Part shown: positions 38,552-42,485 of the stretch, piece by piece
Numbering within the stretch: the stretch's first letter is position 1
Layout: the number at the start of each line of letters is the position of its first letter
Source of the DNA: Bacteroidota bacterium
GTDB taxonomy: Bacteria > Bacteroidota > Rhodothermia > JANXDC01
Length of the DNA: 64,000 nt
Reading direction: 5' to 3'
Assembly (NCBI GenBank): GCA_025998875.1
Contig: AP024675.1
Location: 372,001-436,000, forward strand
The notes under the pieces: generated by a model
The model's database searches: none
Seen by the model: only the letters and a program-made list of their open reading frames with translations
What the model was told of the DNA's origin: nothing
Position numbers and translations under genes: made by a program

Positions 38552-39679
38552 TTGGCCCCCTCGCAGAGCACGACCACCCTCCCGCGCCGGAAAACACCCC
38601 CCACTTCCTCCTCGGTCTGGAAGCGCCTCTGGATACGCCTGCGTGGCAAGCCTCGCCCAACACGCCCTCCGAAAAGCAAACTCCGGGAGTGGGTAGATGC
38701 GATCCTGTTTGCCCTCGTGGCCGCTCTGCTCATCCGAACCTTCCTGCTGGAGGCTTTCCGCATCCCCACCCCTTCGATGGAAAAGAGCCTGCTTGTAGGG
38801 GATTTCCTGCTGGTCAGCAAGGTGCACTACGGGCCGCGCACACCGATCACGCTCGGCATTCCGTTCACGGATCTGTATATCCCGGGTCTGGAACTGCCCT
38901 TCTTTCGGCTACCCGGACTGCAGCGCGTGCAACGGGGAGATGTGGTCGTCTTCAACTACCCGCGCATGGATGCCCCCATCGATCGCAAACCCCATTATAT
39001 CAAGCGCACCGTAGGCCTGCCAGGCGACACGATCCTGATCCGGGATAAGCAGGTCTATGTCAACGGCCAGCCCCTGGCCAATCCCCCGGGCCTGCAGTGG
39101 CACTGGTGGCTTACGCTCGATGAACGCATCCGCATCTCGGGCATCCGGCTTGAAGAACTGGGCATCCAGCAACTCCGTCTGATCGGCAACCGCCTGCTGG
39201 TCAACGCCACCCATGAGGCCATTGAGGAAATCCGCACCTGGCCCGGAGTGCTGGCCGTCGAGCCGGAGGTCCTGCCGGCCGGCGACAGCCGCTTTAGTTT
39301 CGACACCTTCCCTGAAGGGCTAGGCTATAACCGGGACAACTTTGGCCCCCTGTGGATCCCCGCCCGGGGGGCTACGATCCCGCTCAATGAGGATACCTAT
39401 CGGCGATACGGCTGGACCATCAACCGCTACGAGGGACACCGGCTTGAGCGGGGAGCCGATGGCCGGTTCCTGCTCGACGGGCAGGAGGCGCAGGCGTACA
39501 CCTTCCGACAGAATTACTACTTCGTCATGGGCGACAACCGGGACGATTCCGAGGACAGCCGCTTCTGGGGTTTCGTGCCCGAAGATCATCTGGTGGGCAA
39601 GGCGCTGATCATCTATTTCTCCTGGGATACGGAGCGCAACCTGCCTCGCATAAGGCGCCTGTTTAACCTGATCCGATGA
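38552..39679 (+). CDS. lepB: Signal peptidase I, long Bacteroidota-type
   Basis: A 375-residue S26 peptidase that removes signal peptides from exported proteins. A basic N-terminal region precedes one membrane helix (AILFALVAALLIRTFLL). The catalytic Ser is in PTPSMEKSL and the Lys is in HYIKRTVGLPGD; MGDNRDDSEDSRFWGFV is the conserved box. Between the last two lies an insertion of about 170 residues, common in this phylum. Start TTG at 38552 has AAGGAG nine bases before. It overlaps the next small gene by four bases. Confidence 0.92.
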   Translation: MAPSQSTTTLPRRKTPPTSSSVWKRLWIRLRGKPRPTRPPKSKLREWVDAILFALVAALLIRTFLLEAFRIPTPSMEKSLLVGDFLLVSKVHYGPRTPITLGIPFTDLYIPGLELPFFRLPGLQRVQRGDVVVFNYPRMDAPIDRKPHYIKRTVGLPGDTILIRDKQVYVNGQPLANPPGLQWHWWLTLDERIRISGIRLEELGIQQLRLIGNRLLVNATHEAIEEIRTWPGVLAVEPEVLPAGDSRFSFDTFPEGLGYNRDNFGPLWIPARGATIPLNEDTYRRYGWTINRYEGHRLERGADGRFLLDGQEAQAYTFRQNYYFVMGDNRDDSEDSRFWGFVPEDHLVGKALIIYFSWDTERNLPRIRRLFNLIR

Positions 39680-39897
39680 GCCGCCGCCTGTTTCTGCTCA
39701 AGGTGCAGGGCCGCATGAAGATTCCGGACTACGTACAGGTCCGGGATGAACAGCAGACCCTGCTGGCGTATTTCCGGGCCGATCGGCCCGAACAGGGGCT
39801 GATGCGCGTTCCCGGGCTGGATCCGGAAGCGCGCGCCCGACTGGCCGAGCTCATCCGGCAGTTGCCATACGGAAAAGTGACCGAAGTGGAGCTATAG
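39676..39897 (+). CDS. Small protein of unknown function coupled to lepB
   Basis: A 73-residue protein with no signal, alternating basic and acidic residues; the middle part RVRDEQQTLLAYFRADRP-like looks like a beta hairpin and the end ARARLAELIRQLPYGKVTEVEL an alpha helix. I do not recognise it. It overlaps the lepB stop (ATGA), so it should be translated with lepB, and its 3' end overlaps by 47 bases the convergent flavoprotein gene. Confidence 0.75.
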   Translation: MSRRLFLLKVQGRMKIPDYVQVRDEQQTLLAYFRADRPEQGLMRVPGLDPEARARLAELIRQLPYGKVTEVEL

Positions 39898-40987
39898 CCC
39901 CACTCCAGAACCGGCCCGAAGAGCCGGAGCGCAACCGGTACCTTCGGATATGTTCCACCACGTAGCGGGCATCGCGGCCGACCCCGCCGATGAGCGCCGA
40001 ACCCCGGCTGTGCAGCCATGGCAGACCCAGAAAGTAGAGGCCTGGTTCCACGGAGACCCCTCGCAGGTGTTGGGGTTGACCGGAGGCGTCAAAGACGGGC
40101 AGTTCGATCCAGGGAAAACAGATCCGATACCCGGTTGCCCAGATCAGGGCCTGTATGCCGCTGAGCAGACGCCCGTCGGCCAGTTCAATCGCCCTCCCCC
40201 CATCGCGCACCCCCACAACCCGGCTTACAAGCCGCAGGGTGGGTCGGGCGAGCAGCTCTTTGAGGTTCACCCCCGAGACGGGCTCATTGAGCCGCCGCAA
40301 CCAGCGTCCCGGCCAGGCGTGCACGGACATGCGATTGAGGCCCAGCGTCCAGGCCCACCAGTGCACGGGTATCCCGAAGATTCGTTCCGGCGCCTGCCAC
40401 AGGGGCCGGTCACAGGACCAGTAGACCAGACGCGTGCGAGAGAGCTCTTCTGCGATGGCGATGCCGGAATTCCCCCCTCCGACGACCAGAACAGGCTCAC
40501 CGGGCACCTGATCCGGGTTGCGGTAAGCCTGACTGTGAATCTGCCACAACTCCGGATCCAGATCCGATGCCCATTCCGGCACCCGGGGCACGGCATAGGC
40601 ACCTGTGGCGACGATCACGTTACGGGCTGACCAGCTTTGCTGTTCCGTGATCACCTCAAAAGAGTCCTCCGCTCCCCGTCGCATGCGCAGTACACGTTGC
40701 CCTGTCAGCACCCGGAGCCGAAAGCGGCGGGCATAGCGCTCCAGGTAGTCCGCCACCTCGTCTTTAGTCGGGAACGCATAGGGGGGCGCCGGAAAGGGCA
40801 TGCCGGGCAGGGAGCAATATCGGGCCGGGGTGAGCAGGCGCAACCCCTCATAACGGGCCCGCCACTGATGGCCGATTCGCTCCCCCGCCTCCAGCACCCG
40901 ATACGTGATGTGTTGCTGCTCCAGATAATAGGCCGCCGCCAGCCCAGCCTGACCGGCGCCGATGACGAGCACGTCCCACTCGGACAT
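39851..40987 (-). CDS. Flavin-dependent NAD(P)H oxidoreductase/monooxygenase
   Basis: A 378-residue two-dinucleotide-fold flavoprotein: FAD-binding GAGQAGLAAAYYLE near residue 9, NADPH-binding GGGNSGIAIAEEL near residue 172, and the WATGYR motif near residue 300. This pattern is shared by flavin monooxygenases and by some putrescine or cation-transport-linked oxidoreductases; no substrate pocket is recognisable. The ATG at 40987 is chosen because homology begins at DVLVIGAG. It ends inside the convergent small gene. Confidence 0.88.
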   Translation of the reverse strand: MSEWDVLVIGAGQAGLAAAYYLEQQHITYRVLEAGERIGHQWRARYEGLRLLTPARYCSLPGMPFPAPPYAFPTKDEVADYLERYARRFRLRVLTGQRVLRMRRGAEDSFEVITEQQSWSARNVIVATGAYAVPRVPEWASDLDPELWQIHSQAYRNPDQVPGEPVLVVGGGNSGIAIAEELSRTRLVYWSCDRPLWQAPERIFGIPVHWWAWTLGLNRMSVHAWPGRWLRRLNEPVSGVNLKELLARPTLRLVSRVVGVRDGGRAIELADGRLLSGIQALIWATGYRICFPWIELPVFDASGQPQHLRGVSVEPGLYFLGLPWLHSRGSALIGGVGRDARYVVEHIRRYRLRSGSSGRFWSGAIAPLRSLFRMATAG

Positions 40988-41219
40988 GATGCTGTGCCCT
41001 TTTTCCGCTTGCTCAGCCGCTGATGTCGGCCTGCAGAGTAGGTTGGCAGGCCAAATACCATTCCATCCGCCCTTATGCCCGAACAGCCCCCTCTTGCGGG
41101 GATTTTCCGCCTTCCCCGACCGGGTGCGCCGCTTGCATCTCACATTGAGACCTTGCCCGATATGACTTTCTGAAGAGGCAGCAGATAAATTCCGCCGTCG
41201 GGAATCGGAGCAGGTGCCC

Positions 41220-41579
41220 ATGGATATCCGCCCCCTGCGCCTGATCTATCATCGCGCTGAGCGCCGGCTGGAGGTGGCCTTCTCCGACGGGCAGACATTT
41301 TCCTACAGCGCCGAGTACCTGCGGGTCTATTCCCCCTCGGCCGAAGTCCGAGGCCACGGCCCCGGAGAAGAGGTGCTCCAGGTCGGCAAGGAAGCAGTGG
41401 ACATCATCGGCCTGCAGCCGGTGGGCCATTACGCCGTGCAGATCATCTTCAGCGACGGACACAACTCGGGGATCTACAGCTGGGAATACCTCTACGAGCT
41501 TGGCCGCCATCAGGATCGTTACTGGGCCGACTATCTCAGACGGCTTCGGGAAGCCGGCTACAGTAGGCAGAAGCCATGA
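41220..41579 (+). CDS. DUF971 family protein
   Basis: A 119-residue protein matching DUF971 (the domain also fused to gamma-butyrobetaine hydroxylases in other organisms): LRLIYHRAERRLEVAFSDGQTFSYSAEYLRVYSPSAEVRG... VGHYAVQIIFSDGHNSGIYSWEYLYELG. The domain often binds iron-sulfur cluster scaffold partners such as Mrp/ApbC-type ATPases. GTG at 41214 is an alternative start. It overlaps the next gene, a kinase-like P-loop protein, by four bases; that pairing is unusual and suggests joint function. Confidence 0.85.
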   Translation: MDIRPLRLIYHRAERRLEVAFSDGQTFSYSAEYLRVYSPSAEVRGHGPGEEVLQVGKEAVDIIGLQPVGHYAVQIIFSDGHNSGIYSWEYLYELGRHQDRYWADYLRRLREAGYSRQKP

Positions 41580-42448
41580 CAGCGCCGCTTGCCATCTCCA
41601 CCTGGGAGGAAGCGCGCAGCCTCTGCCCTTCTGAGGGGGTGATCCTGCTGCTGGGCGGGATAGATACGGGGAAAACCAGCTTGGCCCGTTATCTGTGGAC
41701 CTGCGCACCGGCGCGGAGTGCGCGGCTGGATCTGGATCCGGGACAGGGGGAGCTCGGCCCGCCCGGAACCCTGGGCGGTCAGGTACGGCTGAACCGAGCC
41801 CGGGTTCGGCGCTACCGGTACTTTATCGGGCATAGTTCTCCTCGGGGACAACTAGTGCGCATGCTCGTCGGGGCCCGCAAACTCCTGGATGAGAGCAGGC
41901 GTCTGGGCGCGCGGTGGGTGCTTATTGACACCTGTGGCTTTATCCGACGCGAAGGCGGGGGAGCTACCTTCAAAGCAGCGCTGATCGAATCTCTGGAGCC
42001 GGATCTTGTACTGGCCCTAGAACGCGAAGGGGAGCTAGAGCCTATCCGGGAGCAATGGCCCGGAGAATGGCTTAGGCGCCGGTGGCGAACCCTTCGTCCC
42101 CCTCCGGAGATCAGGAACAAGAGCCCGGAGATGCGCCGCGCTCGCCGCCAGATGCGCTTCCGGCGCTATTTCGCCCGCGCCCGCACCCAGTTGCTGCCCA
42201 CCGAGGAGCTTGGGCGGGAAGAGGCCTATCCCCTTCTGGCCGGCCGCCTCATGGGGCTACTGGACGGCCGGGGCTGGTTGCTTGCCCTGGGATTATTCGA
42301 AGGTCACGACCCCGACGGCAGGCTCCGGGTGCGCACCCCGTACCCGCATCCGAAACGCGTTCGGGCCCTGCGCGCAGGCAGGTTGGTGCTCGACCCGGAG
42401 ACATGCGAGGAGATCTGGACCGATCCTTTCGGCGAGCCGCCCCCGTAA
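41576..42448 (+). CDS. Clp1/Grc3-like P-loop polynucleotide kinase-type protein
   Basis: A 290-residue protein with a P-loop GGIDTGKTS (about residues 26-34), then DLDPGQGELGPPGTLGG, a hallmark of the Clp1_P family of polynucleotide 5'-hydroxyl kinases (human CLP1, yeast Grc3/NOL9). Such enzymes add phosphate to 5'-OH ends of RNA or DNA. Acidic residues in VLIDTCGF sit at the Walker B position. The lid domain is Arg-rich (RRARRQMRFRRYFARARTQ). It is translationally coupled to a DUF971 gene and ends at a strong terminator. The function in this organism is inference from the fold. Confidence 0.8.
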   Translation: MTAPLAISTWEEARSLCPSEGVILLLGGIDTGKTSLARYLWTCAPARSARLDLDPGQGELGPPGTLGGQVRLNRARVRRYRYFIGHSSPRGQLVRMLVGARKLLDESRRLGARWVLIDTCGFIRREGGGATFKAALIESLEPDLVLALEREGELEPIREQWPGEWLRRRWRTLRPPPEIRNKSPEMRRARRQMRFRRYFARARTQLLPTEELGREEAYPLLAGRLMGLLDGRGWLLALGLFEGHDPDGRLRVRTPYPHPKRVRALRAGRLVLDPETCEEIWTDPFGEPPP

Positions 42449-42449
42449 C

Positions 42450-42485
42450 AGGCGACGCGCTGGCTTGAGAGCCAGCGCGTCGCCT
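42450..42485. terminator. 16-bp perfect hairpin between convergent genes
   Basis: AGGCGACGCGCTGGCT (42450-42465), a 4-nt loop, and its exact complement (42470-42485) lie between the kinase-like gene and convergent yceI. Confidence 0.8.

Follow-up and report, generated by a model that had tools for sequence, protein, structure and literature searches.

The window analysed in this work is a stretch of 64,000 nucleotides from a Bacteroidota genome, in which two adjacent genes on the forward strand were studied. The upstream gene (41220–41579, +) encodes a 119-aa DUF971 / GBBH-like_N protein of the SPSAEV type, without cysteines, assigned by its PF06155 match, its PDB relatives and its orthologue in a genome of the same genus. 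The downstream gene (41576–42448, +) encodes a predicted Clp1-family polynucleotide 5'-hydroxyl kinase of 290 aa, assigned by PF16575, its motifs and Foldseek. Both open reading frames lie where the earlier note had placed them, and the match of each to its family is highly significant. On the upstream side a flavoprotein monooxygenase-like ORF (39851–41221, −; likely start near 40988) parts DUF971 from a gene for a 73-aa protein of no known family (39676–39897, +; no Pfam match), and on the downstream side a perfect hairpin of 16 bp that has no U-tract (42450–42485) is located between the convergent Clp1 (+) and YceI (−) genes.

The two genes share an ATGA start/stop overlap (41576–41579, +), in which the stop codon TGA of DUF971 (41577–41579) overlaps the ATG of the kinase gene (41576–41578). 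As read from the sequence, this arrangement suggests coordinated expression of DUF971 and Clp1; the overlap behind the translational coupling claimed in the earlier note is present, and from it we infer the coupling itself. A strong terminator had also been proposed to follow the kinase gene, and here the structure stood while its reading had to be narrowed. The hairpin has a 4-nt loop, a folding energy of −37 kcal/mol and a z of −6.4, far above shuffled sequences in stability, and it is the longest of the four perfect hairpins of at least 12 bp with short loops in the window. A scan of this site with respect to terminators, however, gave no intrinsic-terminator-like signal and no U-tract or T-run. 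Given the missing U-tract and the position between convergent genes, a strong terminator is a plausible reading only in the sense of a transcript end that depends on a factor or serves both directions.

The earlier note had proposed a profile search for the second gene, and this yielded a highly significant match to PF16575 (CLP1_P), with E 1.5e-26 and 93.8 bits against a cut-off of 26.6, spanning profile positions 1–187 of 188. Human and worm Clp1 were the only matches in a sequence search of the PDB; an NCBIfam search returned no names. In the alignment to worm and human Clp1 the Walker A motif GGIDTGKT is intact (required pattern GxxxxGK[S/T]), and Walker B DLDPGQG, of the [D/E]hhQ type and ending in Q, aligns to ELDVGQG of human Clp1. 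The LID of the window protein, which aligns to theirs as well, reads RRARRQMRFRRYF. Alignment of 15 bacterial homologues revealed invariant G27, G32, K33 and T34 in Walker A, invariant Asp and Gln in Walker B and invariant R187 and R191 in the LID. An AlphaFold model of the protein (mean pLDDT 83.8) was compared with the PDB by Foldseek: the top 20 structures were all Clp1/Grc3/NOL9, with TMq of 0.53–0.70, and the fold match to Clp1 had an E of 4e-14. Family, motifs and fold are established by this analysis, and the Clp1-family identity first suggested for the second gene is backed by its sequence, by its motifs in alignment with the worm and human proteins and by its fold. Its designation as a Clp1-type kinase, the activity being predicted from the Clp1 of Thermus scotoductus, is well supported.

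Bacterial Clp1 is rare, but it is already known. Among 1,543 bacterial species examined it occurred in 14, scattered over the tree, and kinase activity on RNA 5' ends has been demonstrated for the T. scotoductus enzyme, Ts-Clp1 (PMC6777427). Like the window protein, Ts-Clp1 is a short Clp1 P-loop kinase without the eukaryotic N-terminal domain, of a kind that is sporadic in bacteria (PMC6777427). Compared by its published description, Ts-Clp1, of about 27 kDa, reportedly has no C-terminal domain, whereas the AlphaFold model of the window protein carries a beta-rich C-terminal segment after the kinase core; in addition, the clasp has F in the window protein for W. With eukaryotic Clp1 (C. elegans, 4ohv; human, in 8hmy) the window protein has in common the P-loop kinase fold, Walker A/B and the LID, at 18–19% identity in the structural alignment, but it has no N-terminal domain and no context of tRNA splicing or polyadenylation.

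The clasp departs from the [T/S/L]xGW form. Worm and human Clp1 carry TCGW, whereas the window protein carries TCGF, with Phe for Trp; across the 15 bacterial homologues the motif is TTGW in a second phylum and LPGH in the other Clp1-bearing genus of the class. These changes of the clasp aromatic could indicate that the Clp1 fold has been kept in a dead or re-purposed P-loop NTPase, yet the Walker A Lys and Thr, the Walker B Asp and Gln and the LID Arg do not vary in any of the homologues aligned, and Phe preserves an aromatic ring, so that we regard this reading as distinctly improbable. The Phe clasp is treated here as a deviation inside the Clp1 family, since the fold and the remaining motifs hold, and it may be accompanied by RNA binding or specificity differing from that of the family.

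The DUF971 gene is the single copy of its family in the window genome. Its product matches PF06155 (GBBH-like_N, formerly DUF971) with E 5e-31 and 107.7 bits (cut-off 22.8), and its closest PDB relatives are 2l6n, 2l6p and 3luu, all of them uncharacterised proteins, with E of 2e-23 or better. The same Pfam family includes the C-terminal DUF971 domain of HCF101, in which CxCxxC is the proposed metal-binding motif (PMC7980591); the window protein, by comparison, is a stand-alone domain. Most HCF101 proteins and the bacterial DUF971 proteins listed in that work have CxCxxC, whereas this motif of the Fe-S linked (HCF101-like) DUF971 is absent from the window protein, which contains no cysteine, as is also the case for its same-genus orthologue. 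Both proteins have SPSAEV at the site where the other relatives examined have CPCxxC. SPSAEV likewise replaces CxCxxC in the two aligned structures of the type represented by 2l6n, 2l6p and 3luu, from which the window protein shows no notable difference. The idea of a redox-linked or Fe-S process involving DUF971, put forward in the earlier note, fails on this point: a role through the CxCxxC motif of the family is ruled out because the protein has no cysteine.

Comparison within the genus was made with one other genome (locus L057). Its gene order, namely lepA, a 252-aa gene, lepB, the 73-aa gene, DUF971, YceI and S9 peptidase, is as in the window, and its DUF971, 78% identical, occupies the equivalent position. 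This locus contains neither Clp1 nor the flavoprotein ORF. The 73-aa orthologue (84% identical) is directly upstream of DUF971, at a distance of about 30 bp, and in the gap of about 100 bp between DUF971 and YceI no Clp1 remnant was found; nor was Clp1 found elsewhere in that genome. The gap has its own hairpin, different from that in the window. With the flavoprotein ORF on one side of DUF971 and Clp1 on the other, both flanks differ between the window and the same-genus genome. With a single same-genus genome for comparison, these differences would be compatible with either gain or loss of Clp1, and also with its recent co-selection with DUF971.

The earlier note had viewed the two genes as a possible small system of their own. 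A dedicated RNA/DNA end-repair module, with DUF971 as its substrate-binding or regulatory subunit, would agree with the ATGA overlap on the same strand and with the hairpin end common to both genes, but its distribution across genomes argues to the contrary. In a survey of the class (245 genomes, 89 genera) Clp1 occurs in two genera, that of the window and one other, and the other has Clp1 without DUF971 in all five genomes searched. Among 47 relatives with DUF971, the window genome included, a full Clp1 is present in the window genome alone, and 394 genomes of the phylum yielded no further full Clp1. The same-genus genome has DUF971 without Clp1, and in the second phylum, where 12 of 43 genomes carry Clp1, DUF971 is on a contig other than that of Clp1 in both genomes checked. 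At the loci read in that phylum Clp1 has GAPDH as a neighbour, with a V-ATPase subunit (named by eye) at L021. When every locus retrieved was scanned with the profiles, DUF971 and Clp1 co-occurred in copies of this window and nowhere else. The lack of conserved pairing is established by these comparisons: in the collections searched the pair is unique to the window genome, an outcome which the earlier note itself had named as refuting its proposal. A conserved DUF971–Clp1 operon is rejected by the neighbourhood comparison; a dedicated system of the two is unlikely, since no other genome examined has the genes paired, and the end-repair module in particular appears to us highly improbable.

Other relatives gave partial PF16575 matches (E of 1e-5 to 1e-3, most of them to profile positions 1–38), which were left uncounted; considered as Clp1 candidates they were rejected, since they look like generic P-loops. 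No carriage of Clp1 was found in plasmids, phages or IMG/VR. In the tree of Clp1 homologues long branches meet, and the origin of the window Clp1 is not placed by it.

Very probably, the window encodes a bacterial Clp1-type RNA 5'-OH kinase of sporadic occurrence, located downstream of a pre-existing DUF971 gene, the two forming no dedicated functional pair. The kinase would take the gamma phosphate from ATP and place it on RNA 5'-OH ends, with fragments generated by metal-independent ribonucleases as its probable cellular substrates. Once phosphorylated, such fragments could be directed to 5'-monophosphate-dependent decay or would lose their eligibility for sealing by RtcB. RtcB, with an ORF upstream that was recognised by eye as archease-like, is present in the window genome together with a 2H phosphoesterase family protein, and a search of this genome for a PF09414 RNA ligase gave none; because of this combination the kinase products would be expected to enter 5'-monophosphate-dependent decay rather than to serve a T4-type ligase. 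DUF971 would be the older resident of the lepA–lepB string, and Clp1, directly downstream, would probably be carried on its transcript. The sporadic Clp1 gene may have been either gained in the window lineage or lost from its sister.

A different neighbour accompanies Clp1 in the other genus of the class. In six of its seven Clp1-bearing genomes Clp1 lies directly 3' of an MRB1590-like ABC ATPase gene, with a gap of 3–5 nt or a short overlap. These ATPases (L052 9097–10845; L053 9004–10809; L055 8621–10369; L056 9191–10939; L069 33–1439; L073 463–1869) are about 580 aa long where complete, and those that were read carry ABC_N, ABC_ATPase and MRB1590_C domains. In trypanosomes, MRB1590 itself is an ABC ATPase that binds RNA and belongs to RNA editing (PMC4538832). 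The MRB1590-like ATPase is plausible as an RNA-related partner of Clp1 in that genus, and it is a more suggestive one than DUF971. It is not required for Clp1, since it is absent from the seventh Clp1 genome and from the window genome; it is absent from the same-genus relative as well. A further speculation, which we hold to be unlikely, is that the Phe- and His-clasp Clp1 kinases of this class form a bacterial subgroup with changed substrate or regulation, by way of the paired ATPase in the other genus. The window Clp1 is an added member, with a variant clasp, of the rare bacterial Clp1 genes; DUF971 is removed as a tempting but unsupported partner, and the Clp1–ABC ATPase pair of the other genus offers a better handle on bacterial Clp1 function. 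At one of these loci (genome G015, L056 8256–9210) Clp1 is split over two overlapping frames, reflecting a frameshift or an assembly error.
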